From assembly GCA_001687465.1 (NCBI GenBank), contig LVLI01000040.1, positions 48,871 through 112,870 of the forward strand: a stretch of DNA of 64,000 bases. Reading direction: 5' to 3'. The DNA comes from Halocafeteria seosinensis. Lineage: Eukaryota; Sar; Bigyra; Bicosoecida. Shown here in pieces: positions 14,794-60,700 of this stretch (the first letter of the stretch is position 1; each line of letters opens with the position of its first letter). The notes under the pieces were generated by a model that saw only the letters and a list, made by a program, of their open reading frames with translations, had not been told where the DNA came from and did not search any database. The translations under genes were made by a program, and so were the position numbers.

Positions 14794-17700
14794 ATGCCGA
14801 CGGTAAGTGTTGTGTTCCAGCTGTGTTCTGCACTCCCCTTGGTGCCGTGTTGGAATTCCCTGATTTCATGCATACACATCTGTTCTTTCCCTTCAAACTT
14901 CGTGGGTGCAGTCGGGAACGCACTATGATGCTGCAAAGCAAACTTCAGAGCCACATTCTTACGAAGGAGGTCGTAGTGGCAGAACCACTACCCAGGTGAA
15001 AGAATTCCATGGAACTCACGAACCTCCGCGTACTGGCTTCAAGGCAGGGAAGATCTACTACCGAAGCGCCACGCGGTCGTTTTATCTGTGTTGTGCGTCT
15101 TCGGTGTACTGTTTCCGGATCGATAAAAATGGCTGGTTAGAGCACCTCTATTGGGGACCGTGCATCGACAGTAACGATGACATGACGTACCTGCAGTACG
15201 CCAACGTCGATCTTCCATTTGACCCAAAGGTACGTACCGGTGCCCAGAGTTTCGGGTTCGTTGAATGACTATTCGTTTACGAATTTTCTATTGTGTTTCG
15301 AACGCTATTCATGCGAATCACAGCCGTCTCAGTCAGTGACAGCGGGGGAAGTCATCAGCCAGTTGGCAAAGGAAGATATAGATTCACTCCGGGCAATCTG
15401 GTTTCGAGCGCAAATATATAACTCGGGAACGGAAGATGAAGATTCCATCACAGCTGCAAGGATTGAAAATGCCGCATGGAGGCTCATGCAGATGGATGTA
15501 CACTGTCCTTCAAAAATGAAGAAGCCGCCGAGACACGAAGTATCGACATTGCTTGAGAGCAGCACACTACCAGGGTTCGCGGGTAGTCCTCGGAAAATGG
15601 AAGAAAATGTAGTTGGAGTAACTAATGGAGTTTCTGCGGGGGACGTCAGTCATTCAGAAGACATCGACTTTCAAGGCTCCCGGGATGTTGGCAAAAAGGG
15701 CACCGAGGCATTTTCGAGTCATGGCGCAGCCGAACAACAAGATCCTTCCAGAACGGGATTCGCAAAGGTTGCAGAAGCTATGGCTGCGCTTGCTCAGCCT
15801 CAGCTGGAACAAATGGTTGATGGGTCAGAGACAGGGGAAGAGCCTGAAAATGAGGAATTACCATCGTCTCACCCATATCCGAGTGTTGCCCCACAAGCTC
15901 AAGGGTTGAAAGAGGGTGCGTCAAAACAGAGTATGCCGTCTGTTGTTGAATCCATTTGCCACCCGTGCAAAAATATGAGCCAGCGCTATGCCCGGCATGA
16001 ACATGTTGTCGAACACAAAGTTGCGCAAGACGAAGACAAAGAACAGCGTGCACCAGCCACAGCACTGGGGCACGCTCATGAGTCGGGGAAAGCTCTAAAG
16101 CGCAGAGCAAGAGGGGGTAGTGTTGAGGAAGTCAAACAATTGGTGGAAGAGTCGACGAGAAAAGGCTTTACTCCAGTAGGAGGAGCGGAAACTGTGTCAA
16201 AAGCTCATGCCCCAAGACGGCTTAGGAGAGCTGAGAGTGAGAGTGATCTTGCGCAACTCAAAGCAAACGATGCTGCAGTAGACGTTTCCTCTGGAAAGCA
16301 TAGGGAAAGCTCTAAAACCGCGAATGATTCCTCCACAGGTAAACTCCCCTCTGAAGTTGGGAAACCGACTGATGGAGCAACGGCAACACCGGGACAGCAG
16401 GACGTTCCTCCGATTTCGATGGAGTCGGCGCTCCCAAACCTCGAGCACGATGATGATCATATCCTGATGAACGATGATGCCGGTGATGAAGTAGGAAGGA
16501 ACATGAAACTTCTTGAGTACAGCGATCAAGGAACCGGCGACTACCGCTCCCCTTCGTTCGTTGTTCAATACGAAGATGGAAGTACTATTTCGCCCCTGGT
16601 ATATAAGAACCATTTCATTTATCCAGGTACGTAATCCTAGTTTTGGGATTTCTTGCTCGCTGATGTGTTAGATGAGCATTTTTGCTTGCGTATCATTCGC
16701 AGGGAAAATGCGTATGAGGACTCCGTTGCCTTGTGTTCGTACCGACGAGGAACTGGATGAGGAAGAAGCGTCGACTCTGATTGTTACTTTGCTCGATGAA
16801 TTTACTGGAATGGAAATAGAGTTAGTTTACACCGGTGAGTAGTAGGTTCGGTTGTTTTCTTATTTATTTATACTCACCACTTGGCTTTCGGGGTGTGTGA
16901 CTTCAGTGTTTAGAGACTATGACGCTCTCACTCGCAAGTCTATCGTTCACAACAAGAGCTTCCTGAAAGGCCCCTTCAAAGCAGAACAGGATACGTCAAG
17001 TAGTGAGAAGTCGGACGATCCCCAAACCTCCGCTAACTGGTCTGCGGAACTTGCCGGAGGTCTTGGATGCCAGAGCGAGTACGAAAGGTGGGAAGAACGC
17101 GCCACGGCCTGCGGGTGCCGAGATTCGGCACCTGTTCAGTACTCAATAAATGCGCCTGATCAGTATCACCAGAGCCAAATTCCTGCGGAGGAAATGGAAG
17201 GAGTCTCTACTAGAAATGGACAAACTATTAAAGTATCACGACTGATGAGCTGTTCAGTGGATTTTCACGCTGGGGAATACTACATTTCTCATCTTTCAGG
17301 TATGTGGGTTTACTATCTGCTTGTGTCTGAGACAATAAACGATCTGGACTTCTTTTGTTTGTAATGTTATACAGGAGCTTGGGCGGGTGAAAGACAAATT
17401 TGTACGCGCAGGTGTGATCAAGGCGTTTTCTTTGTGGAGTCACGGCGGGGGACCAGCTCTCACCAGCATAATCCGTTTTTGGCTCTGACGGATGGACCGC
17501 CCTCCGAAAACAGCGGTAGAGCTTACGGCTTTGCCCTCATCTACTCCGGGAATTTCCGCGGCGAAGTGGAAATCAGTGAATCTCGTCGCGCTCGCCTCAA
17601 TATGGGGCTCCAACCGACATCGTTTCAGTGGGATCTGGCTCCAGGGGAATCATTTGAGTCTCCAGAAGTAGTAATGACCTACAGTAGCTCCGGGCTGTCT

Positions 17701-19212
17701 CAAATAAGCCAAAATTTTCACGCCCTTTTCCGGGAAAAAGTCATTCCAAGAGAATTCCGTTGGCATATTTGCCCCGTCCTACTAAATACCTGGGAGGCCA
17801 TGTATTTTGACGTGACGCATGACAAAGTTGTTAAGCTAGCCCAAAGAGCTGCTAACATAGGTGTGGAAATGCTTGTTGTCGATGATGGTTGGTTCCTTGG
17901 GAGAAACGATGATACCTCATCCCTGGGAGACTGGTTCGAAGATACGTCAAAATTGCCATTCGGCTTGCGCGGCTTAGGAGCAGAATTGCGTCGGTTAGGT
18001 TTAAAGTTTGGGATTTGGATAGAGCCTGAGATGGTGAACGTCAAGTCGCGGCTGTATCGCAGACATCCCCACTGGTGTCTCCAGGTGGCAGGACGCGGTC
18101 GCAGCGAAGGACGAAATCAATTAGTGCTAGACTTTTGTCGACCAGAGGTAGTGGAGCACATCAAGAAGACGCTGCTTCGGGTGATCTCCGATGCACAGGC
18201 GGATTACATTAAATGGGACATGAACCGGCATTTGAGTGAAGCCTTTTCAGCTGCTTTGCCTCCAGAGAAGCAAGGGGAAGTCTTCCATCGGTACATGCTC
18301 GGAGTATATCAGGTATTCCAAACCCTAAGGGACAATTTTCCGAATCTACTGATAGAGACTTGCTCGGGTGGTGGTGGCCGCTTTGACGCTGGAATGCTTT
18401 ACTACTCACCTCAAATCTGGGCTTCGGATAACACGGATGCGCTCACTCGGATTAAGATTCAGTACGGTACATCCCTGGCCTACCCTGCTTCATCTTTCGG
18501 CTCACACATCAGCGAAGTTCCTAATCATCAAACATTGCGGCATACTACTCTGAAAACCCGTTTCCTGGTAGCTTTGTGCGGAACGTTCGGCCTTGAAATG
18601 GACCTTGCACCATTCAAGGAATCAGAGCTCGCAGAGCTGGAATACTACATTCAGCTGAGGAAAGAGCTTGCACCGATTACAACATTCGGAAGGTTTTATC
18701 GACTGTGGTCGCCGTTCAAATTTGACTCTGCGGCTTGGATGTTCGTAGTTCACGCGGGCACACTCCGCAGAGCCATGGCTGAAGGCTTTACGCAACCTGC
18801 TTGTGGTGAAAGTTGCCGGATAACCTCCTCCAAGCCACCTACCGAAAGGCTACACGATGGGCATGCGACAAGCGAAGAGTTCTTCTCTCGTCTTCCTGTC
18901 GTAGAACAAGCTCTTGTATGCGCATTCAGTTTGACCAAGGATACTGGCTCCACGTTACCGCGTCTTCGCCTTAAAGGCTTAAACCCTGATAAACGCTATC
19001 GAGTTGTCGAACTTTGTCCAGGAACATTGCGGCGACTTAGCACGGGTAAAATAGTCCATGATCCTGACAATCCAGTATACCAGTTTGGCTCCCCAAGGCC
19101 TCTCATCCTGTCGGGTAAAGCCCTGATGAATGCTGGTCTTCCTGTACGCTTCGAGTTTGATGGAGATAGCGTCGCATTCAAACTCACTGCTCTCCAGGGA
19201 AAGCAGAAGTAA
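14794..19212 (+). CDS. GH36 alpha-galactosidase with large insertions
   Basis: Six exons (14794-14802, 14912-15229, 15324-16626, 16703-16834, 16907-17299, 17375-19212) give 1330 aa; the first exon is only three codons (ATGCCGACG) and is the least certain. The family order is complete: the N-terminal beta-sandwich starts at about residue 40 (FYLCCASSVYCFRI) and resumes at GTGDYRSPSF. Then come GTSSHQHNPF, WEAMYFDV, LVVDDGWF, GIWIEPEMV, the nucleophile Asp1000 in KWDMNR, TCSGGGGRFD, and the acid/base Asp1070 in WASDNTDA. The two aspartates are 70 residues apart, as in bacterial GH36 enzymes. The enzyme releases terminal alpha-galactose from oligosaccharides or glycoconjugates. Normal length is about 730 aa; the excess is a disordered insertion of about 390 residues (110-500) and a second of about 90 residues inside the N-terminal domain. 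No signal peptide is seen. Confidence 0.9.
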
Positions 19213-30912: not shown

Positions 30913-33900
30913 CTAACCTTCCAGCATTTCCTCTTCCAGATCCCGTTGTTGTTTTTTCCGTGCCTTTTCCAACTCCTTCTCCTCCACTTCCCCAAAGGTA
31001 TCGCACAGTACCCCAATGAACAGGTTGACGAACAATAAGCTGTTAATCACCACAAATAGAACAAAGTATGCCAGCGGCACAAGAGAATATCGCGAGTCGG
31101 CTGCAGCGTATGACACCACATGCCATTGCTCTCCCTCCATCACCAGGAAAAGTGTGAACATGGAATTCGTAAACGTGTCAAAATTAGCTGGCGGCAATGA
31201 GTAGGAATCGTCGCTTAGCTTCTGAAACTGCCCGCTGAACAACCACACGCCGAATATAGCGAAGGTGTACATCGTCAAAAAGATCAAGACAGTGATATGC
31301 ACGAATTTGTTTCCTTGCTTTATCAGACCAAAGACTAGTCGGCGTGTTGAGTGAATGACTGAAAACAGCCGAAGCACGGGAAGGGTTACAGCGATCCGCA
31401 TCCCGACGTTGACTGCGAACGTGTATCTGTTTTCGGGTTGCACAACCCGATCAGTTGGTTGATCTACACCGATAAAACTGGTTCCGATCACAGCCAAAAT
31501 GGCGACAATCATTACAAGCGAATCAAATCGATTTGCCGAAACCTGATAGTTACTGCGAGCGTCGACATCTTCCTCTTCATCCTGAACATCCTCCATGGCA
31601 ATCTCGATACTCGCTCGTCTAGTTTTCTTTCCTTCGTCGGCTTTCCTTTTTTCGCTTTCACTTTCTTCTTTAACTTTTGATCCAGCTTCACGCATTACAT
31701 GACTGACATTATCTTTCCTCCGAGGACGACGTCCAAACCAAAATTCGGCTGGGCCGGTCGCGACCATATGGAAGAACACTTCAATCGCCTGAAGAAAGGA
31801 AAACGCCCCCATGATGGGGTCTGCATACGAAGTAAGCCGGGTTCCTAAGAGCATGATAGTCCATGTATGTATCAACACCACCTGCGAAATAGAGAGGATT
31901 TCGCCTTATTAATCTCCATGAACGCGGTACGAGATAATACTTACAGCTAGTACGACATCGTCGTATCTTATCCTCATACTGTTATCGAAAAAGGAGTAAA
32001 GCCACTGTCGAAACGATTCTAGGGCTTGAAAGATACCGAAGCGCTTTGCACCTCGTTCCACAAAACTCGTCGCATCCGAGAGGAACAGATCGCTTTTGTA
32101 CGCCCCTTTCTCGAAATCGAAACCGCTGCGAAGAGAGCAGCTAGTAAAAACCAATGGACGAAGACAAACGTATTGAGTTGTTAAATACTTACAAGTTAAC
32201 AGTTAGATATTCACAAAGATATACAAACTCGGTTGCGCTAAGTTTTTCGTTTAGGCCGTCGTAGTGGGATGGCTTCACTCCACACGAGTTGAAAAACGTT
32301 TCATACTCATACCGATCAATAAGGCCATTGCCATCGAGATCGAGCAGTCCAAACGCAACCAGAGGAGCAAAACGTCGTCGAGTGATAACTCGCCGCGTTC
32401 GCACTTCATATGATTCCGTGTAGCGCGTCTGGAAGCTAACCAACAACAATGCCGCCATAATGAACATACCAAGAAGAGCCAACAGCACAATATAGGGGCG
32501 ATAAATCGCTCCAAGAAACCCACCGTCCTCTGTCGGATCACGAGCAGGGTACGCTAAATCATCGTAGTTTTCACCCGTTGCAGAAAGTATAAAGAGGGTA
32601 TACCACGCAGACTGGAAGTTGGTGTATCCTCTTGCTAGACCTGGTAAGGAAAACTCTTCGACTTCATGCGGCTGTAAGGCTTTATTCGCCCCTCCCACCG
32701 CAATGGTCTCTTGTTGCAGCTGAAACTGGTCGAATCTGGAATCCCCAGTTGTATCCAACGCAATGTCTGAGTCTTCTTGTGCGAATGGAAGGTTATCCAG
32801 CGGGCTCGGAGCACTACCACCAACAGGTCCGGCTCCCAAGTCCGTATAGTCACTGAACAGCGCAATGGTGATAGACGCTATCACAATGGTGAAAGTGATA
32901 AACAGGGCAAATGTCCTTCTTGCCAAAAGAACTGTACTTCCTAGAGCTTGTAACGATCGTCTAAGAGGAGGCACTCGCAACACGGTGTAAAATGGACGTA
33001 CCAACACTGTTGCAGGTAACAACGTCGCGGATCTACCCGTTCGATAGTCGAGGCCGAGGCGGACGAAAAAGTCCAGTACTAAAGCCACGTACAACACCAA
33101 CCTGATGACATACAGCTTGTGGAGGGGTTGATACTCTACGCGTCTGTCTTCAGATAAGCTACCGTCTTTCGTGCCGTTCCCGACGACGCTTTTTGGGCCC
33201 AAATGACGATTCTGTAAGCGTTCTGACCGCTCTCGATAGTTACTCGCTGCCTTCACATCGTATAGCCAGTAGTATGATTTTCTAAAACCCTTAAGGAAGT
33301 AGAACAAGAAATTGTCCATCCCAAGAAGAATAAGAACGAAAAACTCGAACAAAAGCACCCGCGAACGACGCTGGGCTACCTCTTCCACGGGGTTATCAGC
33401 ACTGAATGTTCCCCAAGCTCCATCGCTTTCAGCGCTCCACCCTTCAAGTCCATCCACACTGTGTTCCGCCGCCAATTCCTCCGCTCCCTCGAAAGCGCTC
33501 CCTATGTCCACCTGCAAATCAGATGCTGACGTGTCCGGAGAATCACTGGGTAAAATTTCGCCGTTGGAAACGATCACTGATGCGTCCTCCAAACGTCCTC
33601 CACTGAAAACGGTATCACTCGCTTCGAAGAATGCAAGAACGAGGAGTCCAGCGATGACAATGTAAATAAAATATACGTAAAACTTCGTATAGAATAGCCT
33701 ATGCAGCCTTTCAACCCTAAAGCGGCCTTCCCTGTCAAGAATGACTGCCTCAAGTGCATGCCGGTCTGAGGAATACATATGGATGAACTCGCGCGCGCGA
33801 CGGAACTTCGCATGTTCCCAGGACAATTCATCGCTTGAACGAACGCTCTTCCGTGGAGTCGCTAACGACCTCCTTTTGCTCTCGTTGATGGGGTTTGCTT

Positions 33901-36900
33901 GTTCTGCAACAGACTCATTGCACAGCAAAGAATTAACGGTGCCATCATCCATACCTGCCAACGGGTTAGTTACATGATTTGATCCCGGTGGTGCTTGCCA
34001 CACTCGTTTTATCCAATGCCAACATCGGGGCCAACAGTGTTTTGGGGGAGATTTCTTCAATAGCGCAGCTTCATGCATATCTTCCCTTTCTTTCTTCTGC
34101 CATTCGCTATCCTTGCTATAAACTTGGGTAATTGCATGGTGAACTGCGTGCATGGCAGACTCAATGACGGGGTCAGCTGGGATCAAAGGAGCCGATTCAT
34201 CTTCCAGCTGAGGAGAAACATGTGTGTACGATTCGCTCCTCACGTGACTACCACTCCTGCCCGCCGCACGCATACTAGAACGGATCAACGCATTCGCTGT
34301 ACTTAATTTCCGCAGCCTACGTTGATCCGCTGCTTTTGCAACGCTTGGCGATGGAGGATGGAGGAAAGTCGACTTCCTTCCTCCTTTAAACCTCTTCTTG
34401 TAATACTTCCTCAACCAAGTGGTCAGCATACCAACCACAAGCGTACTTGCCAAGAGGGGTCCAAGGGCAATCAAGAACAACGCCCACTGCCAACTCTCTG
34501 ATTCACGCTTTATAGTCTGCCGGTGAATCAAGCCAGAAGTGAGAACGTCCATGTCGTCTCCTGTTCGAAGACTGTCAATCAGCGAAGCGGAAAGCAATGC
34601 ATTCTCACCAGCCCCGTTGACGGTAGCTAAAGAATGATTCAAGCAATATCGGGTTAGCATAGACGCACCAGACGCTCCCCCAATGAGATGCTTACTGTGA
34701 ATGAACTCAGCGTGGGAACCAATACCAAATAACGATGTAGCCTCACGAGAAGCTTCTTTAAAGTCTCCCAACTTTACCGCAGTCTGAACTACGGTACTGG
34801 CATCTTCATTATATTGGAAGAACTCCACATCGTTAGCAATCTCGAGAGCAGCTGTTTCGACGAAAACATCCTTGCTCTCTCGAACAAACTCCCTCTCGAA
34901 GCCTCCATGGTCACGGTCGGTCTGTAAAACACCTCCATGAGAAGCGCCGACGAGAATACTTGGGGGCCTTACTATCGCGTCGAATTTGTTGCTCGATTGT
35001 CCTGCTGATGTAAACAGCGACGATTGGGTGATCGATCTCCTAGGAAAATTGGTCAGGCAACCACTCGAAGTACATATACTTCGCTGCACAGCCCGTGTAT
35101 CCTTACTCAAGGCACCTTCCCCTTCGGCAAGGTTGATATCTTCAGTTAGAGCAGGATTGTGCGCTGTGGAAAACGCAAGGAACCGCGACAGGCTGACCTG
35201 CCGAGTTTCGACGCTATACATCGAGCGTAAAGGGCCCTCGCTGACTACTAATCGGTGAGGCTGATCATAGTCGTTGATGCTGATCTCGAATGGAGACGTG
35301 TTATCGAACGGTGAGCGGGTGCTGAAGTGGATATCGACGTTCCCCAGGAGTTGGTTAAACGCTGCCAGGGTAAACTCCACATGGCCCAGCCGAGTAAACG
35401 AAGAATCGAGATTCGTGGTGAGATTTCGGAAGACCCGTGAGCTCTTTGTTTGTTCATCGGGGGAAATTCTTGAATCATCCGTTTTCTGTAACCACTGCTG
35501 TGCAACGAAATTCCCCAGCGCGCTGAACATCGAGCTTCCATTAAGTGGTTCCGGCTGAACACTTGCAAATCCAAGGCTGATTGTCCTACCTCCGGGGATG
35601 AACGTCCGCCTCTCACTTCTCCCCGCAGCAACTGCTGTGTCGAACGAGCGCGACAACGCACTACTGGGGGACCACACGGCATACGTGTAGGTCCACCTAC
35701 TCGAAAACATAGAGTCCACTACCTCCTTGGAAGGAGCCCCCTGAAACATCGAAGACTTCAATGAGTTACAGGCGGTCGTGTCTAAAATCTCAGAAGTTTC
35801 CCTCCGGAAGTGATTAACAGATCCAAACCACGGAAGCGCCGAGAGGTCTAACGAACTCTCCGTAGATGCTACTGGCTGACTCCGTAGGAACGTCACATCT
35901 CTGAAGCTTTTGACTGTGTCCTGAGCGTCAGCAGGGGCATCAGCATCCTCAAAAGCATCTCTAGCGACCGGGTCAATAAGTTCGCCAACGAGCAGATCCG
36001 TCATTAGGTCAATTGGTGACTTGTGCCAAGAAAAGATCCCGACAAGTGACGCTGAAGATGGCATATTGTTTCCTGACTTGACAAACAGCACCTCAGTCTC
36101 TTGTACTGAAGGGTACAAAACATACTCAGTAACATAGCCGTCAGTCTCATCCGCTTCCCTACGTATCAACAATGATAAGCTTCCTAGGATTGACTGAGAC
36201 CATGCACCAGCTATCATAGAAGAGTTACCTACACCAGGCGCAACACCGTCACCCTTGCTACTCAGTTTCGCCGTATCAAGTGATACAGGCTGAACCGCTA
36301 CATATCCCCCATTCTCCGTATCTCCCCACACCGTGCCGCCGCTGGCATCACTCCCAAGACCGACATGGTTGAATGCAGAGATTACTTCAATAAATCCCAA
36401 ACAAGTAGCCGCCTTCATTCCAGTGGACTGCAACAGTGCTTCTGGAACATCCGTCAAAGCGCTGAGGAAGTCTTCCTTCGACTGAGTGGCGAACACGTTG
36501 CGACGATACTCTTCCCTTTCATGTTTTACTTGTTCTGAGAATGCTTTCTCATAGTGAGTCTCCCTGTCAAACAGCGTCGGAGGTGCCAGAAAGTGAATAC
36601 TATGGACATCGGCGGTGGCAGTGGTACCGATGTGACGCAAATGAGCGGTGTGAATCACCTCACGCGACCCAAGTGCGGAGGCACAGCTAGCGACCCTGTA
36701 CGAAACGTCATCCGTGGCTCTGCCCCATGTTGAGGAAGAAACAAACGTCAAGAACATTGTAAGCGCAAATGTAACTAGCAGTAATATAATTGAATGAGGT
36801 TGAAGTCCCCCAAGCGTCATGCTGGTATCTTCTCCCCGCTCACCCTTACCACTCTTTTCCATTCGAGCTGCGAAACCGACATTTTCCTGCGATTTGATGA

Positions 36901-38986
36901 TGCGCTGCCCCCACCGCAAGATGCGGAAATCGGACTCGTGGTCTTTCGGGAAAAGCTGAACTGCCAAATGCATGAGCACTATCACGCTAAAGCACACCAC
37001 AGCGATTGTCAAAAGTATTGCAGCTGTCATCTGACTCTGGATGTACCCAATTACTTCCGTTCTTGGTGTTCCGATGAAGAAACCCCAATTCGGAAGGAAG
37101 CGCTCCAGCTCCGAGGAGTAACCAGCTAGTTTGTTGGGACCAAACGCTGCATCAGCAGCGTCCTTTGCTAGGTTCACGACGGATATGGTTGATTCTTTTT
37201 GCACAGGCCAACCACGAAGGGACGCCACATGAAACGCGACCACCGCCTCTCCTGCAGCGTCATCTGAGCCGTAGGGATTCCGGTAGTATGAAGCTGTGCT
37301 CGCCCCCGAGGGATCCTTGTCGTTGCCTATTGGCCAGAAGCTGAGGGATCCTGGTAGCAACTTCCCGAAATATCGACTACTAGTTAACATCTCCTTCAGG
37401 TTCGGCAAGTACGATCGTAAACTGCTCTCAGAATTTTGTGCGTATTCAGCAAGTTTAGGTTGGGAACAAAGATCTATGGGATGATAATTAGGGTTCTCAT
37501 CAGCTGAAGAATGGGCAGCAACCTCCGACACATGTTTCCACGCGTTCTTTTCAACGTCCCCCTGGCTGGATTTGTCGCCCCCAATTGCGGTGTTTGACTC
37601 CAAGTCGACAATTCCGAAGCAGCCCCCATCTGAAAGAGCATACCCCGAACCAGTGAAATCACTCGAGCTCTTGTCTCCGACGCCAGAAATGGCTAGAGCT
37701 GCCATTGCTTTTTCCGCAAATATGGATGTATCGATTGCCATAGCAGCAACCTTCAGTGTCGCGTCAGTATCATTCGGGGCGAGCATCGGCAACATAAGAA
37801 TGGCCACCTGCTCTACTGTCGCCGAGCTACTTACCATTGGGAGCTTTTTTGTCTCCGCGGCACTGAGGACATTCCAAGAAGGGCGAAATGCTACGTCTTT
37901 TGGCAACCGCTGTCCATCAATGTCCTTGGTTAATCTTTCGATATATCCTGTTCTAACCCATAAGTCTTCTTCACTGAAATCTTCCACACAGTGCTCGTTT
38001 GGACAGTATATTTGACCTAGTCGGGTTGTCCGCAAGCCTTCTCGATGCAAAGCGTACTTGCTTGGATTGTCACTAAAAGAAGAATCCAAAGAAACAGACG
38101 GCCACCACTGGTACCTCCACCTCGAAAAGGAATAATCACTCTGCCCTTCGCAACAGGCTGTCCACTCAGTCGCTTCGCAAGCCCGCACACATTGCGGAAG
38201 ATAATCATAAACCGCTGGCCATCCAGACGAGTCGTCCAAAAGCGATGAAGCACCATACATGCGGCCCGTCCCCACGTCCCACACTTCCATCCACAGCAAA
38301 GCTTCATCCTCAGCGACCTGTTTCCCCAAGAATGAACGAAAGGCCGACCACTGTTTTTCGATAGTATCTCGTAGGCCTTGGCTGTCCTCAGCGTATTCCT
38401 CTAACCTTTGCATTTGCCCTGTTGAGTGCTCTAAATCTGATAGAAGGCGAGATGCAAGGTCTCCCTTAAACGCATACTCAGCCGCAGTGTACCGAATTTC
38501 CTCCGTTCCTAGCTGAGCAGTAATATTCATCATATTGCCCACCGTTGTGTCAACACTTAGGATACTCCCAGTCACTCCTATAGCGGATACTAAGAATGCT
38601 CCCCAGAATATGACGAATGGTACAGTAGCAGTTTTCAGTACAGGTTCCATCCATTCTGGTATTGTGAACGAGCCTCCACATTTGTACCACGCGGGTTTGC
38701 ACTTGTTCTCGCCCCACTCCGCCTGTTGTTCTTCAGACTCGGGAGTTGTGCTGTCATGTTGCTGTTTCGATTCATTGGGGGTACCCGTCTCACTTGAGGT
38801 ACGAAGAGGATCCTCTTCCTTGTCCGAGGCACCTTCCTCATCCACTCTGGATTCCGCAATGGAGTCCAAGTCATGAGAACTGACCGCTGTAGAAGAGTGT
38901 TTCAGCGCAGCAGGAGGCGTCGATGACCCATTCGTGCTCTGATGAGCATTATTATCCCTCGCCTTTTGGGTATTCACGTTGCTCAT
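30913..38986 (-). CDS. Giant receptor-channel A: two ectodomains fused to a two-repeat voltage-gated channel
   Basis: Three exons (38986-32193, 32125-31945, 31881-30913; introns 67 and 63 bp) give 2647 aa. Residues 1-117 are cytosolic and disordered. TM1 (about 118-142) is followed by an ectodomain of about 510 aa that ends in NWGFFIGTPRTEVIGYIQ before TM2 (652-676). TM3 (729-750) starts a second ectodomain of about 745 aa, closed by TM4 (1496-1523). After a 240-aa cytosolic stretch comes channel repeat I: S1 about 1765-1789, a basic S4 with LVRPFYTVLRVPPLRRSLQ, pore ILSATGENYDD, and S6 near 2165-2186. The linker has a canonical EF-hand loop (DLDGNGLIDRYE) at about 2213-2224. Repeat II has S4 (LPVLRLFSVIHSTRRLVFG), pore LVMEGEQWHV and S6. 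Two repeats with a linker EF-hand is the TPC1 layout; the N-terminal receptor half is unlike any TPC I know. Role inferred: ligand- and voltage-gated cation entry. Confidence 0.85.
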
Positions 38987-40391: not shown

Positions 40392-43300
40392 CTACTCTGC
40401 AGCCTCTTCATCCTCGTCATCGAAGAGTTCTTCTTCCAATTCGCGCTCATGCTGTCTCCTGGCTTGCTCCAACTCCTTCTTCTCTACCCCGGAAAACGTA
40501 TCGCAAAGAACTCCAATGAATAAATTAGTGAATAGCAGTCCATTGACCGTGACAAAGAGTATAAAGAATACCAGAGGCACCAGAGAATTCCGGGCGTCTG
40601 CTGCAGCGTACGAAACCACATGCCATTGCTCCCCTTCCATGATCAGGAAGAGGGTGAGCATTGAGGTGGCGAACGTGTCGAAATTTACATCGTCCTTGCC
40701 GTAGGTGTCAGCACTCAATCTTCGATATTGGCCCCCAAATAGCCAAACTCCAAAGATTGAAAAAATAAACATTGTTAAGAAAATGAGAACGGTAATATTC
40801 ACGAATTTCTTCCCTTGCTTTAGTAACCCGAACACGAGCCGGCGAGTGGAGTGAATCACCGAAAACAGACGAAGCACAGGAAGTGTGACGGCAACGCGCA
40901 TCCCAACATTTACTGCGAAAGTATACCGGTCGTTATGCGCAACCTTATTATCTCGTTGTTCAACTCCAACAAAGCTTGTTGCAAAAACGATCAAAATAGA
41001 AAGAAGGACAACGATTGTATCAAAACGATTCGCGGAGAGCTGGTAATTGCTTCTTGCATCTATGTCCTGCTCCTCTTCTTCTTCATCCAGATCGTCCGCA
41101 TCCGTAACTTGGCCGCCTTTCATTTCACCTGAAGCACGTCGGTTAGCCATAGCTTTGCTAACATTCTTGTATCGCCTTCGGCGCTTTCCGAACCAGAATT
41201 CCGAAAACCCGGATGCCAAGATATGAAACACCACCTCAAAAGCTTGTAGAAAAGAAAAAGCGCCCATGACTGGATCGGCATATGAAGTGAGACGCGTGCC
41301 CAAAAGCATAACGGTCCACGTGTGCACCAGGACAATCTGCTCAGTACACTCGTCAAACATACAAACTTACTACGAGACAACAACGAGCACTTAGGGAGCT
41401 TACCACCAGAGCGACATCATCGTAGCGGAGCGCCATTTCATTATTGTAGAAGCGATATAGAAAGTCCCGAAATGAGTACACATAGGCGGCCAAATGTAAC
41501 TGCCGAATGCTCTGGGAGAGTAAAGAGCTTGTGCCCCTAAAAAACATATCACTCCTATAAGCCCCCTTCTCGAAATCAAAGCCGCTGCATAAATTTCGAA
41601 AACTTTACGGAGACCGGCAATGGAGTACTTGCGACTGCGTCAATAACTTACAAGTCTACAGCAAGGTGTTCACAAAGGTAAACAAATTCCGTGGCACTCA
41701 ACTTGTCATTGAGGTCTGCGTAGTGAGCTCTCTTTATGTTGCACGCCTGAAAAAAACCCTCATATTCGTAGCGGTCAATAAAACCATTACCATCCAAATC
41801 AAGCATCGAGAATGCGACTAGCGGGGCGAACCGTCGTCTCCTAGTGACCCGGCGTGCGCGGTGGTCATACGACTCACTGAACCTGCTCTGGAAACTGACA
41901 AGTAGTAACGCGGACATGATGAACATGCCTAGCAAGGATAGAATAACCAGGTACGGCCGGTAAAAACCACCAAGAAAGCCACCATCATCTGCAGGATCTC
42001 TGTCCGGGTATGTAATGTCGTCGTAGTTCTCGCCCGTTGCAGACAGAATAAAGATAGTATACCAGCTAGACTGAAAGTTTGTAAAGCCCCTGCCTAGCGC
42101 CGGTAAGGCAAATTCTTCTGTTTGGTATGGAGCAATCCCTGGATTTGAGCCAGCTACGGAGACAGCCTTGCTTTGAGTTCGAAACAGCTGAAAATCAGTG
42201 TTGTCCTCAAGAGCAACGGCTTCATCTCGCGACGCAAACGGGAACGACTGCATGGGATTTGGCGGTTCTCCACCGACAGGGTCGTCGCCGAGGTCTGTGT
42301 AGTCGCTGAACAACGCTATCGACAAAGACGCGATAACAATGGTGAACACGATAAACAACGTGAACGTTCTTCTCGCCAGGAGAAAGGTGCTACCCAACGC
42401 TTGAATAGAACGCCTGAGTGCTGGGATCCTTAGTATAGCATACACAGGGCGTATCAGAACAGTAACCGGCAATATCGTCGCGGACCTCCCAGTTCTATAG
42501 TCAACGCCCAATCTGACGAGAAAATCGAGTAAGATTCCTGTGAAGAGGATCAATCTCACTATAAACAGTTTGTGATAGGTGCTCGATTTCTTGGCTCTTG
42601 AGTTTGCGATAGAGAGTCGTTCCGAGGCGTTTCGGTTTTCTGCTAGCCCGTCTTTGTCAGACTTAAGGACATTCAGTGGGTTATTCGACACCGTTGCCTC
42701 TGAAGCAAACTGCTTTGCTTCTTCATTGGTGTTGCCACCGTTAACCATTCTTGCTTCAAGACTTCCCCCACGAGTGGTACCGCGTTTAGACTCATATCCA
42801 ATAGAGCCTCCTATAGTGCCTTCACCAGCCTGCGATACAATTGATGACCGAGCAGCTTTCTTGCTATATAGAGACTTGAATTTTTTCCTAACTCCTTTGG
42901 CATAAACGAAAAGCAAATTATCTAGACCGAGCAGAAGTAAGATAAAGAACTCCGCCAGTAAAAGCTGCGATCGCAGTTTACTCACCAGTTCAGCCGGCCG
43001 AGAAGCACTAAAAGTTCCCCAAGCTCCTGCATTTACGGCGGTCCATCCTTCACGACCATCTACGCTCTGCTCGACTGGAAGCTGTCCCGCTCCCTCTAAC
43101 CCGATGCCGATTTCAACCTCGATATCCTGCGGGCTGGTATTCGGGGCATCCGAGGGTAAAATATTTGCATATTCTCCCCCTGAACTGGGCATAGCGACAA
43201 CAACTGAAGCGTCATCTAATTGTCCTCCTTCCACAACGGTGCCGCTCGCTTCAAAGAAAGCTAGTAATAGGAGGGCCGCAACGACGAGATAAACAAAAGA

Positions 43301-46300
43301 GGTATAGGCCGTAGTATAGAATAAGCGATGAAACGTTTCAGCCTTGAAACGCCCTTCTCTGTCTAGGATCACGACCTCTAGAGCATGCCTGTCCGACGAG
43401 TACATGTGGATGAATTCTCTTGCCCGTCTAAAGAGTGAATTCTCCCAACAGATATCGGCTGTGGAACTAACAGTTTTATGGGAGGAAAACAGGGATTTCT
43501 TGTGGTTCGCCATAGGATTGTTCTGGCTCATGCTGTTTTCGTCCTTCCTACGATTATCCAACACATCTCGTTGGACCTCCTCTGATAAGCCGGCAAGAGG
43601 GTTTCGCACGTGCTCCGAATCTAACCGAGGTGACCAGAGGCGCGAAATCCACATCCACATTCGTTCTTTGCTATCACGGGGCCCATCATGTTTCAATCTA
43701 GCCGCCTCTTGGATGTCGCTGTACTGCCATGCATCCCAAAGGGAATTTCGAGCATAAACACTCGATACGTGCTGATGCACAGCTCGCATGGCAGCTTCGA
43801 TAGCAGGATCGCGTGGAATCAAGGGCTTGGAGGCATCGTCAGTTTGAACACGCAGCGTATGAGACTCAGAGGTGTCTGGGGGCTCGCTCGAGGCTGCTTG
43901 CCCCATCACTTTCCGACTAGCCTTCCATAACAGCGACGCTCTTTTCCACTTCCTCAAGCTTGCGCGATCCGAGAAAGAACAGTTGGAATTGTTTCGAAAC
44001 GAATTGGTCCCTTTCGAGGAGGCCGACATTATGCTCTTACTGGAAGATGCTCTTTGAGGCGGTTTCATCAGTCGTTTGTAATAGCGTCGCAACTTCGTAG
44101 TAAGAATTCCAGACAAGAGGGTAGCCGCCAGGAGCGGACCCAGTGCGATGAGGAAGAGGGCCCATTGCCAACTGATGGATTCCCGTTTTATGGTCTGCCA
44201 ATGGACTAATCCACTACTTACCACGTCCAAATCATTGCCCATGCGAAGAGAATTACTAAGCATTGTACCAACGAAAGCGTCCATATTTTCTGTTCCTACT
44301 GTTGTGCCACTCGATTGATTCGAGCACAAGCGTATAACCATACCGGTACCACTGGCCCCTCCAATAACATGCCTGCTGTTAATGTATTCAGCATGCACCC
44401 CAGCTCCGAAAAGTGCAGTCCGCTTAGATTCAGGGGATGTCAGTCCGGCCAACTGAGCAACAGTTTGCATGACTGACGTCGCATCAGCAGCGTATTGGAA
44501 AAAGTCGATATCATTGGCAATTTCCAACGCAGCAGTTCGCACATACACGTCATCACTGCCTCGCACAAACATTCGTTCGAATGCGCCGTTCTCAGAATCT
44601 TCCTGCAGCACTCCCCCATGGGACGAACCAAGCAGAATGCTCGCAGGCCTAACTATGGCATCAAATCTGTTAGGTTTACTGCCAGCTGAGGAGAACAACG
44701 GAGACTCACTCGTGCGGCGCTGTGGAAAATTAGTTACACAGCCAGTATCAGAGCATAGTGTTGCTTGGAGCTGAGTTGTTGTCTCTTGCAAAGCACCAGC
44801 AGCATTGCCAAACGAGAACCCATCAACCAGGGAAGGATCGTGAGCGGTGGAAAATCCCAGATACCTCGGAACACTGACTTGCCCTGCATCCACACTATGC
44901 ATAGCCCGCAATGGTCCTTCAGTAGCAACCAAACGGTGTGGCTGGTCGTAGCTATCAATGCCTATCTCGAACGGAGATGTATTATCAAACGGAGATTTTG
45001 TGCTAAAGTGCACTGGTACGTTCCCCAACATCTGGTTGAAACCACTGAGACCGAAATCCGCATGGTAGACAGCGAAGAGTTCAAAGTCTGGAGAGACACT
45101 CATGTTCTCGGCCAACCTGGAGCTTCCATCAATATGCATAGGGTTGGGCCTTGCTATAACCTCCATCGCATCTTCCCAGTGCGTAGCAATAAATCGTTCA
45201 AATCCTCTAAACACGAGCGTTCCATTCGTTGCCCTAGCGTGGGCTTCTCCAGACGCAAGCGACATTGTTCGCGAACCTAGCGTAAACGTACGCGTCTCGT
45301 GACTGCCAGATACAATAGCGTCCGGCATATTGATGTCGCGCTGTGGTTCCGGAGACCAGACGCTATAAACATACGTCCATGTCCCACTGAACAAAGAGCG
45401 TCGGAAATTCGCTGGGGACGCCGTGGGGAACGCTCCCGTGACTTCACATACACTATCCGAAATTGGGGTCTTAGGGTGATCGGAATAGTGCTCAAATATC
45501 GAAAACCATGGATACGACGGTAGCTCTATTGGTTTGTCCGTCAAGCCGACTAGTTGTGTCCGAATCATTGCTTGCTGGGTCAAGGCCTCAACGAACTTGC
45601 GGGAAGCAGGCGGGCTTTGAACTTTATCTATGGCTGCGACTGAGGTAGGGTTTACTACTCCGATTACAATCAAGTCTGCTGCCAGGTCGATGACTGACTT
45701 ATGCCAAGAAACAGCGAGATCAACGTCAGATACGCTACGAGCAGACCCTGAATCAGTTACGTAGTCAGCAGAGCTCTGCACAATATGAGGATACAGGACA
45801 TACTCCCTGACCACATTCTCCATTCCTTCTGGATCCAGCTCTGAGCGTACCAGAAGAGACAGACATCCTATCATCGGTTCCTGCCACGCAGATTCAATCC
45901 TACTTGTATTTGCATATAGGATCCCTTCGCCATCTACCTCTAGATTTCCTCGTTTCTTCATCTCTTCCGTTGAAAGCGTGACGGGCTGAACCGCTGCGTA
46001 ACCGCCTTGGCGACCTCCATTCCACACAGTACCCCCAAGGGCGTCAGTTCCTATCCCCAGGTGACCAAATGTAGACGTGACCTCGATGAAACTGAGAGAG
46101 GCAGCAGACTTCATGAACTCGGATTGTATCACGATACTAGGTACAGAGACGAGAACGTCAAGGAAATTGCTTTTGTCGCCTTGCGCGGCCAAAAACGCTG
46201 ACTGATGGTACTCTGCGCGTTTTTCCCGAGTTTCTCGCGAGAAAGCATCCTCCGATTCAGAATTATATTGAAAGAGAGAGGACGCAACGAGGAAGTGTAT

Positions 46301-48682
46301 ATCTCGGGCATCGGCAGCCAGGCTAGTAGCCAGGCGGCGAAAGCCGGCATTTTGCTCCACTTCCCGGGAAGCGAGCGCAGAAGCACATTCTGTTACTCGG
46401 AAGGATACATCATCCGTGGCTCTACCCCACGTGGACGAAGAAATAAAAGTCAAAAACATAGTCAAGGCAAACGTAAGTAACGAGACAAGCAGAGAATGGG
46501 GCTCGAGACCTCCCAACACCATACTTTGCCCCTTTCTGGTGTCATGCTGCTTGGCATGTTCTTGTTGCTTTTGGGGCTTTTTCGCAAAGCCTTGGAACCA
46601 CTTAAATATCCTGTTTTTTACTCTTTTATCTGGTGGTGCCGCCTCAACGGCCAAGTGCAGCAGAATCAGTATACTTGCAGCCATAACAGCCAGCGTTAAC
46701 ACGATCGAACCTATCATCTGCTGCTGCAGATAAGAGATGACCTTTGTCCTCGGTGTGCCTAAGTATAATCCCCAGTTTGGCAGGAAAAGTTCGAGTTCTT
46801 TCGAGTACCCTCCCAAAGGGCTCGGGGGATTTGCGGCTTCGGCCGACAGCTTCATCAGTTCCAGCGCTGACAGCTGGAAATCTTCTACAGGCCATCCATC
46901 CAGAGATGAGACATGAAAAGCAGTTACCGCATCCCCAGCAGAACTGTCAGAACCGAACGGATTACGATAATAAGCCGCTGTGCTTGCACCTGAAGGATCG
47001 TTGTCAGACTGCACAGGCCAAAAGCTTAGCGACCCAGGAATTACTCTTCTAAATTTGGCGGAATAAATATCGGCATCTTCGGTTGCGTGTTCCGAATACT
47101 CGTGGACCGTCCGTTGCGACACTTCAGCAAACTCCTTCAGCTTCTCCCTCTCACAGAGGTCTACTGGATGGTAATTAGGGCTTGGTCCAAAGTGCGACTG
47201 CGAGGGGAATACGGAGCTATGCTTCCAGCTGTTCGCTTTGATGGAACCTTGACTGCGTCGGTCACCCCCGACGACAGCACTGGTGGTCAGATCCACAAGC
47301 CCAAAGCATCCTCCATCAGACAGCGAATATCCCGAGTCAGTGAAATCATTAATCTTGGGGTCCCCGACTCCGGAAACAGCTATAGCAGCCATCGCCCTTT
47401 CGGTGAAAACAGATGTGTCAATCCCTATTGTGGCCATTTTAACTGAACTTTGCGATCCATTCGAAAACACCAAAGGGGTTGTGAGGATCGCAACTTGAGC
47501 TGCCCCCCTTAAGTCGTTTACCATTGGCAACTTCTCAGCGTGCTTGGCGCTCACAATATTCCAAGATGGGCGAAGTCCGCGGACTCGGGGCACGCGAAAT
47601 GCCGCTTGACCCTCGGCCGAGACGTCTCCCATGTACGTTGTCGCTTCCCAAAGGCTCTTTGGACCCACGAAATCTTCCGAGCAGTCACCATTCCCGCAAG
47701 TGATAGCCCCCAAACGACTGCGGCGCAATGCTTCTCGATTGACTGCATAGTCGCCCCACTCACTCCCCGATGTATCCTCCCCCTGAACCGTCTTCTGCCA
47801 GCCATATATCTTCCGAGAGAAAGTATCTTCAAACCCTTGGTCGCAACATGTTTTCCAATCTTCATTGTCGCACTCTCGGGCACACGAAGGCAGATAGTCG
47901 TAAACGAGAGGCATGCCACTCTTGCTACGCAGAGCAGAAGATGCTCCGTACATGTGGCCACTGGATAAATCCCACACTTCTAGCCATAACAACTTGTCGT
48001 CTTCTGCCACTTGCTTCCCTAAAAAGGCTCTAAAACCGTTCCACTGTCGCTCCACCACCTCCCGTAGGTTTTGATCATCCTCAAGATACTGCTCGAGTGT
48101 ACCTAGCTGTGCGGTAGAGTGCTCTAAATCGGAATAAATGCGGCATGCTAGCTGCCCTTTGATGGCATACTCAGCAGCGCTGTACCTGACTTCCTGAGTC
48201 CCTAATTGGGCAGTGATGTTCATCATATTTCCAACCGTCGTGTCTACGCTAAGAATACTTCCAGTGATCCCTATGGCGGATACCAAAAAGGCTCCCCAAA
48301 ATATAGCAAACGGGACGAGCGAGCTCTTCAACACAGGCTCCGTCCAATCTGGGAGTTTTTCTTTTGTTTCCTCATAAGTACGTTCAAACCATTCCCTGCA
48401 TGTTTCCACACTTTCCTCCTCCGAATCGCTTTCACTATCATCCCCCTCTTCACCTTCATTAACCGTTGAGAGGTCCTCCTCTTCTACAAAATTTTTTCCT
48501 CCGGGTTGATATGGCGAACCCTCCATGACGTCATCATCGCTGTCCCTTGCAGTAACGGGACCCGCCGATGCTGTCGACCTCGATCTCGACTGACCTTTAC
48601 CAGATGTGGTTCCCCTCCCCGCTGTTTTCGGTCGGGCAGAATACAGAGAGTTCAGTGGGAGGCTCGACCTCTCTTTCGACAT
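40392..48682 (-). CDS. Giant receptor-channel B: tandem paralogue of A
   Basis: Three exons (48682-41652, 41584-41404, 41336-40392; both introns 67 bp) give 2718 aa with the same plan as paralogue A. The two introns fall at the same codons (DF-GFDFEKGAY and VALV-IVLVHTW). TM1 is near 120-145 and is followed by the shared LSVDTTVGNMMNITAQLG stretch. Ectodomain 1 contains SDGGCFGLVDL and ends in NWGLYLGTPRTKVISYLQ. TM2 is near 652-680, TM3 near 727-750 and TM4 near 1500-1527. Channel repeat I has pore ILSATGENYDD, the linker EF-hand loop is DLDGNGFIDRYE, and repeat II has pore LIMEGEQWHV. The extra 70 residues lie mainly in cytosolic loops, such as a low-complexity stretch between S2 and S3 of repeat I. 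Strong conservation of pore, S4 and TM-flanking motifs, with freer ectodomain sequence, suggests two channels tuned to different ligands. Confidence 0.85.
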
Positions 48683-57365: not shown

Positions 57366-57794
57366 CGGGGGCATATGAGGAATCAATGCGGGAGAAGTTA
57401 CGAAGATGAAACTGTTTGTGGAAAGCGCATATGACAGTACCGGTATGTACGAAGACCTCTGTTGTTCAGAACAAGTTCAGACCGTCTCCGGATCCTCTTT
57501 GCCATTCGACGGAAACCAAGGCACATAATTAAGGTGAATACAATTAAGGTTGCACACAATATAAGCAAATACAATCAAGAGTTGGAATGAAATCGAAATG
57601 TACTCCTAGAGTGCATACTATAGAGCCTCAACTTATTGTGAATGAGTCTAGATTCCGGAAGCGGCCTCGTCCTCTCTCAGGGTGTATCCACAGCAAGAGT
57701 AGTTCAGAATTGCCGTTTTGTCCATATCAGAGGTGAAGGGTGACTACAAAGAACGACTATACGCTGCGATACACTAAGTACAGAACAGTGTACA

Positions 57795-60700
57795 ATGGAG
57801 AACTTTAGGCTCTCCTCAAAGCCCTCGCTAGCTGCAGCGCGGACGTTAACGAGCTGCTTGTGGGTATTACAGGGGCTTCTGGTGGCCTCCACGATCATCA
57901 TTCCCATCTTTATAGCGGTGGATTCTGATACTCTTCACATTCCACAGGACGAAAGAGGAGGCGGAGTACGAGGCTTGACGGTGCGGGACAATGAATCTGA
58001 TATAGGATCTTTTTCTGAGTTCTTGAGATCCCGAGTCGATTCCACCTGGGGCAAGATCGTTGTTTCCCTCTTGGCGATTGTAGTTTTTCCTGCTCTGTGT
58101 AAGCTATTGAGTGTCTTGTACCGGAACATTAAACTTCGGCACCTCCGAAGTGAAAACCCGTTTCATGCAAAACTGATTGATCGTGTGGGGTTGTCGGTGG
58201 GAGACTACTCGGACATGGTGGACACACAATCTCTATCTTTTGCTCTTCTTCCCCAAGCTCCGCGTGCGCAAGTCTTTTATGAATTTGTCAATAGTCTATT
58301 GCAACGTTTCATGTGGAACGGCGACCAACGATTGGATAGGGCCATTCAAAGTGAAGCGGTTGACACGAAGGCATGTCATGGTCTTGTGAGCACACTTGCA
58401 AGAGCACTACTACAGATTGCTCCATGGGAGAACCAGGGAATAGGACGCTGGATCTTTGGTCGTCTAATACGGAGTGCATTGATGAATGACGACTTCTTCC
58501 AACGAAATGTAGTTGAAAGATGGACGAAGTGGCTCAAGAAAGAACAGAAGGCTATCTGGGTTCGTCTAGAACGGAATCCCAGTTTTCCTAATGTCGGTAC
58601 AACACTTGATCCGGAGAGACTGAGAACTCAATTTAAGATGCCTTACAAATTCAACAGTCCTGCTATCAATAAAGCTTTCGTTCGACGCACTGCGCTTCTT
58701 GAACAGATGAATGGTTGGGCTGTTGCAGGTTTCCGCCGGAGAGGACGATGCCAGTTAGTTCTGGAAGGAATAGGAGGGATCGGAAAAACTGAGCTTGCAA
58801 CTTATTTCTTTCATAACCCTCCCTGTGTATACAACCTAAAAGTGTGGCTTTTTGCTGCTACGACACATGGACTGCAACAGCAATACGTAGACCTATATGA
58901 AGCATACCGCAGTCAATACAATCCGTCTTTGAGACGCCTTGCTGAGGGAGAGTCAGTAGAGGAGCAAGCTAATCACGTGCTCTCGTGGCTCAACGGTGCC
59001 GGTGTGGAAGGACGATTCCTGATCGTATACGACAATGTTCCTACTCTAGACACCATAAAGAAATGGTTGCCAGATGATGAATCCAAGCATCATGTAATCA
59101 TTACGAGTCGAAACCTATCGGAATGGAAAGTCAACAGCGTTGGCAACGACGATCGCGATAAGATCGTAGAGGTTAACAAAATGAGTATAGCAGAATCAAA
59201 AGAGCTCATGGAAAACTACTGGGAAACGGGATTCTCTTCTTCAGAAGATGCGGTGGAATGTTTATCGGAACTCTTCGCGGGCCTACCGCTTGCTTTGACT
59301 CAGGCGGTGCATTACATGAAGAAAAACCACAGGAATGCCGCGTGGTACCTGAAACAATACGAGAATGACCGACAACTATTATTGGCCGCTCGCCATGGAT
59401 TTTCGTCGTCTTCTGACCACGAACCCGTCTCCGTAACGTACACGGTCACTCTTCAACAGCTACACGCAAAATGTCGTCCAGCCTTGGAGCTCCTCAATTG
59501 TATTGCTTGGATGGGACCCCAACCTCTTGACGACATGGTCGCCCAAGAACTTATTGGGAAATTCCGCGGCAACGAGAGCGTCGAGATTGAGTACCCAGAG
59601 TCGCGTCGCGCCCTCGAACAATATGGACTGATTCGTGTTGATCCTGTAACACTTCACATTAGTCTGCATCCAGTACAACAGTCAATTATTTGCGATCGCC
59701 AGACTGAAATTGATCAGTATCTCCCTGTTTACTACTGGCTCACTTGCTGCGACGTTGTCACTCAGTTGTACGACTTGTTCGGGGATCAAGGCTCGTTGCA
59801 ATACCGGTGTTTGCTCTCGCATGCTGAAGCATTACACGAACAAGCCGACAAAATGTGTAGACTGTCACTGGAGGCCAAAAAACTACAGGGAGGCTCATGT
59901 TCCTGGCTATCCTGTAGAAGCGGAAGATGTTGGAACAAGACTCACGACGAAGTTGCTCGAGAGGGTCAACTCCTGAGGATCGAACCCTTGTGCCTAGGAA
60001 ATATCTACCACGGAATTGGCAATTACAAAGAAGCGAAACAGTATTATGAACGTATACTCTTGGTCAAGAAGCAGATGTATGGTAACGAAGACGACCTTGA
60101 AATCGCAGGAACTATGGACAAAATGGGCAGTGCCATGCTCGATACGGGGGAATATCAGACGGCTAAACACTACTTTGAACAAACCCTGAGTATCTGTAGA
60201 AGTTACTACCAAGAAAATCACACTAAGGTGTTGCAATCAATGGAGGGTCTGGCAACGTCATTGCGGAAATTAGGGAATGCGAAGAAGGCCAAAGAGTACT
60301 ACAAGAGTGTGCTGTCAGCTCGCCAAAGCGGAGGACAAGACGAGGACATTGAGGGTTCTAATTGTGGTGCTTCACGTGGCAAAAGAGAATCGGCTAGCAC
60401 AATGATCGGTTTAGGTCACGCCCTGAGGGACCTTGGCGATGCAAGCACTGCCAAAGAGTACTATGAACAAGTGTTGTCTATGCGGCGGCAGCTGTATTCT
60501 GATTCAAAGCACCCTGCCATAGCTAAAGCCGTGGTGAACTTGGGTAGTGCATTATGCAATTTAGGAGATGCAAGAGAGGCAGCGGAGTGCTACAAAGAAG
60601 CGCTAATTGTACAGAAAGAGTACTACGGAGAGAATCATGTGAAAGTAGCGCGTACGCTGGAAAATTTGGCGATTGCGCTACGCAATTTAGGAGATGCGCA

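Follow-up and report, generated by a model that had tools for sequence, protein, structure and literature searches.

The Cache sensor domain has a known place beside ion channels: Upadhyay and colleagues name VWA_N and VGCC_alpha2 as its ion-channel context, and the cited part of their paper assigns metazoan Cache mostly to the auxiliary alpha2delta subunit of voltage-gated calcium (Cav) channels (PMC4822843). A survey of diatom channels reports ordinary two-pore channels (TPCs), and its main text nowhere uses the word 'cache' (PMC11085791). Here we describe gene A (30913..38986), which joins two giant sensor-like ectodomains to a cation-channel pore in one polypeptide; it lies in a 64,000-nucleotide stretch of Halocafeteria seosinensis DNA, hereafter the window. 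(Positions are those of the window, and features lie on its minus strand unless noted.) The host is a halophilic bicosoecid. We know of no Cav- or TPC-type pore that carries a receptor of such size on the same chain, and the titles and abstract openings listed from the open-licence literature hold no receptor-TPC or receptor-Cav fusion. We call gene A a voltage-superfamily channel, in itself a known kind, with a new receptor half. This architecture is established; its gating, ligand and selectivity we infer.

Gene A has three exons. Exon 1 (32193..38986) encodes, in order, the N-tail, transmembrane span 1 (TM1), ectodomain 1, TM2, TM3, ectodomain 2, TM4, channel repeat I and the EF-hand, all within one stop-free frame of 2270 codons. 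Exon 2 (31945..32125), behind a 67-base intron, encodes the remainder of the linker between repeats I and II; exon 3 (30913..31881), behind a 63-base intron, encodes repeat II and the C-tail with its stop codon. Both introns are GT-AG, and the spliced frame gives 2647 amino acids (aa) plus stop. Across 2647 of 2647 residues, and thus through all three exons, this product is identical to P0001, which EukProt lists as a complete protein predicted from transcript GECG01012031.1 and which was retrieved from a search of ~5.8 billion proteins. An earlier note, made from the letters of the window, had proposed this single exon chain and had singled out the 32193/32125 junction for transcript confirmation; the identity with P0001 bears out the chain and settles both that junction and the second one.

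The same note had named two signs of mis-joined neighbours, a receptor gene and a channel gene taken in error for a single gene: transcripts ending before the channel, or separate genes in relatives. The gene A transcript runs through the channel. No stand-alone relative of the ectodomains was found in the organism's own genome or among the best ~8000 protein candidates (each protein search scored the ~8000 candidates sharing most words, and its negatives hold for these). No stop separates ectodomain 2 from repeat I, both of which lie in exon 1, and the identical layout recurs in two further genomic copies, genes B and C, and, up to the end of exon 1, in two further proteins, P0003 and P0004. 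A hint of a mis-join comes from P0002, the transcript protein of gene B, which stops after the EF loop, where its frame differs from the genome. The full-length transcript protein rules out a mis-join for gene A, and we leave this reading next to no probability.

A protein search finds three full copies in the genome: gene A (contig C25 of the 30.6-Mb, 605-contig assembly), gene B and gene C. Gene B (40392..48682; exons 48682-41652, 41584-41404 and 41336-40392; 2718 aa) is a tandem paralog of the same architecture, directly upstream of A; gene C (2702 aa) is on contig C391. Overall identity is 52.3% for A and B and 43.9% for A and C; in repeat II it is 68.7% and 63.9%, respectively. In all three genes both introns can be placed at equivalent positions and phases, with transcript support for those of A only. 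P0003 and P0004 can be followed from the N-tail as far as exon 1 extends, so that conservation is visible across five proteins, and across three for repeat II. In a tree rooted at its midpoint only, gene C and P0004 stand apart from P0003, A and B at 100/100, with A and B joined at 95/96. If P0003 and P0004 belong to other species, the fused form predates at least one lineage split and was retained. (A further genomic match, L025 on contig C156 at 4373-5520, is a broken scrap of repeat I with tandemly duplicated filter stretches, in units of 117 and 83 bases; it was set aside.)

The ectodomain part occurs within the genome at A, B and C only, again by protein search. The protein searches returned P0001-P0004 and no other such fusion: 4 matches among 8000 candidates in one search, 4 among 7998 in another, and 4 of the 46 rows of a third, in which proteins under ~1456 aa, and thus of TPC size, could not appear. 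Of the 42 other rows in that third search, the five inspected (P0025, P0028, P0029, P0036 and P0045) are four-repeat channels, and the remaining 37 were assessed from their names and domain lists only. Among the best ~8000 candidates per search, then, the earlier claim of an undescribed architecture holds.

The N-terminal half was delimited by hydropathy averaged over A, B, P0003 and P0004. Four peaks, at residues 129, 663, 741 and 1512, precede the channel spans: TM1 (aa 119-142, 38561..38632), TM2 (aa 653-676, 36959..37030), TM3 (aa 729-752, 36731..36802) and TM4 (aa 1501-1524, 34415..34486). Between TM1 and TM2 lies ectodomain 1 (aa 143-652, 37031..38560), and between TM3 and TM4 ectodomain 2 (aa 753-1500, 34487..36730); their exact limits are our own setting. 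Their lengths of 510 and 748 aa agree with the four spans and the ectodomains of about 510 and 745 aa read from the bare sequence earlier. Both ectodomains are net acidic in 5 of 5 rows of the alignment, which also share eight cysteines (266, 270, 278, 279, 456 and 507, all in ectodomain 1; 1073 and 1448) and two sequons (154 and 1229). Net positive charge marks two stretches in 5 of 5 rows, the one that follows TM4 and S2-S3 of repeat I, and the TM2-TM3 loop in 4 of 5; the N-tail varies. On balance this charge pattern fits ectodomains outside and the channel linker inside.

The channel half contains two repeats, not the four of a Cav channel. Repeat I (aa 1769-2185, 32432..33682) has an acidic S1-S2 loop of ~80 aa, and repeat II (aa 2326-2620, 30997..31881) is encoded by exon 3. 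Both pass the 25-bit cut-off of Pfam Ion_trans: residues 1961-2191 score 35.2 bits, and exon-3 residues 111-302 score 98.1. In the linker, aa 2216-2227 (32306..32341) form one canonical-looking 12-residue EF-hand loop, DLDGNGLIDRYE, recognized by eye; the Pfam EF-hand scores, 11.6-19.1 bits, stay under cut-offs of 25 to 25.9. The earlier note had likewise placed an EF-hand loop in the linker.

Neither S4 carries the arginine ladder expected of a voltage sensor. The RxxRxxR pattern is absent from S4 of repeat I (LVRPFYTVLRVPPLRR, 32957..33004) and of repeat II (MRIAVTLPVLRLFSVIHSTRR, 31339..31401), and the wider pattern [RK]xx[RK]xx[RK] with hydrophobic spacing is absent from the channel part in all five proteins (for P0003 and P0004, repeat I only). 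The wider pattern does occur once each in gene C and P0004, beside TM2. Elsewhere in the genome a ladder is present in L001-L008 and L010 and absent from L011 and L012: the four-domain channels on contigs C235 and C129 have it, and a TPC-like gene on C268 has one match. So of the two six-span voltage-gated repeats proposed before, the two repeats hold good; 'voltage-gated' names the superfamily and is, on this sequence, not supported as a property of the gene A channel.

(The genome also holds large Ion_trans genes that appear by eye to be four-domain, Cav/Nav-like channels, on C235 and C129 (L001-L008, clustered on C235) and on C256. L011, on contig C230, is a 1347-aa frame with apparent ankyrin repeats, again by eye, ahead of one Ion_trans region.)

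The selectivity filters are acidic. That of repeat I, TGENYDD (32558..32578), is identical in 5 of 5 relatives; that of repeat II, MEGEQW (31123..31140), is identical in A, B and C. Aligned with repeats I-III of a Lymnaea L-type Cav channel (repeat IV was not picked up) and with two TPC-like genes of the same genome, both filters match the Cav glutamate: the second glutamate of MEGEQW directly, and that of TGENYDD after a one-residue insertion. The TPC-like genes have asparagine-type filters (TTTNFPD, LTTANYP, MVVNN), a type to which neither TGENYDD nor MEGEQW belongs.

Searches of the Protein Data Bank (PDB) divide the two repeats. Repeat II matches Cav1 chains best, domain II first. The full-length protein scores 98.5 bits against the best Cav chain (Cav1.3) and 35.8 against the best TPC1; such whole-chain scores sum several domains, so the per-domain margin of Cav over TPC1 is modest (for repeat II, best single-domain scores of 48.9 and 41.6 bits among the matches listed). 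With repeat I and the EF stretch, TPC1 is the only channel among the matches listed (14 of 14; 60 of 172), at E values of 0.03-0.27, and a PDB profile search with the same stretch gave no match at E <= 0.01. The label 'TPC1-like' is therefore weakened: two repeats and a linker EF loop remain, and the acidic filters and the Cav-like repeat II depart from it.

These results bear on the possibility that gene A encodes a divergent TPC residing in an endomembrane (a vacuole, for instance), with lumen-facing domains that would serve as glycosylated shields or lumen sensors and not as a cell-surface receptor. Two repeats with a linker EF loop are the design of plant TPC1, TPC1 is the one channel touched by repeat I and the EF stretch among the matches listed, and TPCs are often organellar, according to the cited portion of the diatom survey (PMC11085791). 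Set against this are the acidic filters, the preference of repeat II for Cav, and the presence in the same genome of ordinary TPC-like genes (on C136 and C268, so named by eye), with the ectodomain part at A, B and C only. On these grounds we consider an endomembrane TPC unlikely.

What, then, are the ectodomains? A predicted model of ectodomain 1 resembles Cache sensor folds in Foldseek and VIA-align; the closest are bacterial dCache chemoreceptors and sensor kinases, and the Cache/PAS-like part would be membrane-distal (aa 160-435, 37682..38509). This is a low-confidence model, and we say that ectodomain 1 looks Cache-like. At the sequence level, dCache_1 (PF02743) has no match up to E 10 in A, B, C, P0003 or P0004, a genome search with it has no match on contig C25, and a PDB profile search with ectodomain 1 has none at E <= 10. 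Pfam searches to E 10 give both ectodomains only weak, sub-cut-off matches to unrelated models, and NCBIfam to E 1 gives none. In hhalign, ectodomain 1 was compared with 11 frames that have dCache_1 matches: three from Sinorhizobium meliloti pSymB, six from three Azospirillum plasmids and two from the same genome (pSymA gave none; 3 of the 11 exceed the family cut-off). All comparisons gave <=1.2%, with shuffled controls reaching 0.6%. The frames were entered as single sequences, cut to their first 420 residues except for a 921-aa and a 267-aa frame used whole; the test is insensitive because single sequences make weak profiles. The two ectodomains are not duplicates of each other (hhalign, 0.1%).

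(Two other loci of the genome, L026 on contig C37 and L027 on contig C170, have weak dCache_1 matches of 27.3 and 23.4 bits, under the cut-off, and may be ordinary Cache receptors.)

The alpha2delta-1 protein is among the structural matches of ectodomain 1, at Foldseek rank 28 and VIA rank 50. Because Cav channels have in alpha2delta a partner that bears Cache domains (PMC4822843, cited part) and the filters here are Cav-like, the ectodomains could be built-in auxiliary parts of that kind, steering folding, trafficking and gating strength with no sensing of a ligand. Pfam, however, detects no similarity to alpha2delta families, and the weak S4 leaves the channel in need of another gate signal; we give this alternative a small but real chance. 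Still less probable, in our view, is a cation channel sensitive to mechanical force or osmolarity, whose giant domains would tether it to a surface coat. The likely hypersaline host and the very large acidic domains are in its favour, but Pfam and NCBIfam find no adhesion-type domain, and the conserved cysteines and invariant motifs suggest compact folds, not spacers.

We favour a single-chain, ectodomain-gated, calcium-permeable receptor-channel with EF-hand feedback, comparable to a Cav channel and its alpha2delta in one polypeptide, and put its probability at roughly 0.5. In this model, two giant domains, extracellular or perhaps luminal and each anchored by two spans, are covalently joined to a two-repeat pore. 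Two chains would assemble one four-repeat pore, with a Cav-like filter ring of four glutamates; with such a filter, calcium should pass. Since S4 lacks an arginine ladder, we infer that the main gate signal comes from the ectodomains, which would drive channel opening by way of TM4 and the 244 cytosolic residues that connect it to S1. Ectodomain 1 may be the binding site for a small molecule or a gauge of external conditions, salinity for example, and the linker EF-hand could provide cytosolic calcium feedback. The data establish one expressed chain that carries ectodomains, pore, acidic filters and a linker EF loop in a fixed order. Support for the further steps falls from calcium permeation to the dimer, then to weak or absent voltage sensing, to ectodomain-driven opening and last to EF-hand feedback.

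Gating by a ligand would be favoured by the Cache-like fold of ectodomain 1, as suggested by a poor model without sequence backing. The likely habitat invites guesses at the cue: salinity, or small molecules from prey bacteria. A more specific version, which we hold tentatively and would sooner bet against than for, is a chemoreceptor whose output is a calcium-selective pore: Cache-type extracellular sensing, which serves bacteria as the input of chemoreceptors and kinases, fused to a Cav-like pore of two repeats in which voltage sensing has been lost, an evolved one-piece counterpart of the Cav-alpha2delta pair opened by outside chemistry.

Several observations weigh against the receptor-channel model. 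The first is the only transcript protein of gene B. P0002 lacks repeat II: from its residue 21 it tracks the genome for 2217 residues, and then, past repeat I and just past the EF loop, leaves the frame in a manner that fits, by eye, one extra base in a T run. Its start differs from the genome as well. The genome frame of gene B continues through two drawn introns into a complete repeat II. We take the end of P0002 to be an assembly or sequencing slip; it could also be a real truncated isoform. The second concerns voltage. A ladder is likewise missing from the C230 channel and from the TPC-like gene on C136, scattered arginines remain in S4 of gene A, and a ladderless S4 may still move. Topology is the third: net negative charge in the N-tails of A and B, and to a slight degree in the 677-728 loop of C, leaves the inside-positive pattern uneven, and an 'ectodomain' could be luminal, given the often organellar location of TPCs in the cited part of PMC11085791. 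Finally, the Cache assignment is fragile. The ectodomain 1 model has a mean predicted local distance difference test score (pLDDT) of 37.4 and no Foldseek match at E <= 0.001; lower Foldseek rows include unrelated proteins such as BmrR and BabA; VIA-align re-scored only Foldseek's own picks; and neither Pfam, NCBIfam, the PDB profile search nor hhalign demonstrates Cache in ectodomain 1. Ectodomain 2 has no recognized domain and an uninformative model (pLDDT 29.5), with 19 Foldseek rows at E <= 10, the best at 3.2, and no common fold among them.

A natural single-chain version would offer a direct way to study how a Cache-like sensor outside the cell is coupled to a Cav-type gate. If the receptor-channel model is true, a Cav-type pore can be switched from voltage to outside chemistry. 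Gene A would also be a candidate entry point for calcium signalling in this flagellate, a probable inhabitant of brine, where the cell surface reads salt and food cues.

The window contains other features of interest. Two peptidase frames (701-2431 and 8063-9673, both minus strand) each combine pro-kumamolisin activation and subtilase-type domains. A glycoside hydrolase family 36 (melibiase) gene extends over two frames, perhaps intron-split, at 15186-19209 (plus strand). A 1146-aa frame at 57744-61181 (plus strand) joins NB-ARC to tetratricopeptide repeats, an NLR-like layout in a protist.

Each half of gene A has a recognizable counterpart. Plant TPC1 shares the two six-span repeats per chain, the EF loop in the I-II linker and a weak match to repeat I and the EF stretch; unlike TPC1, gene A has a receptor-like region of ~1500 aa in front, acidic filters, no arginine ladder in S4 of repeat II, and one canonical EF loop by eye. 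Four-domain Cav channels provide the best matches to repeat II, domain II first, and an equally placed filter glutamate in both repeats; gene A differs in having two repeats and not four, no S4 arginine ladder, and ectodomains that belong to the chain of the pore itself. Bacterial dCache chemoreceptors and sensor kinases show the same order of span, extracytoplasmic sensor and span, and they are the closest folds to the ectodomain 1 model. Gene A has no dCache_1 sequence match, and its output would be a cation pore in place of a kinase, cyclase or methyl-accepting domain. The Cav alpha2delta subunit, as described in the cited part of PMC4822843, resembles gene A in that a Cav-like pore is served by an extracellular part that is large and, in gene A, probably of Cache type. 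It has no detectable sequence similarity to gene A, and it is separate from the pore, whereas in gene A the corresponding part has four spans and belongs to the same chain.

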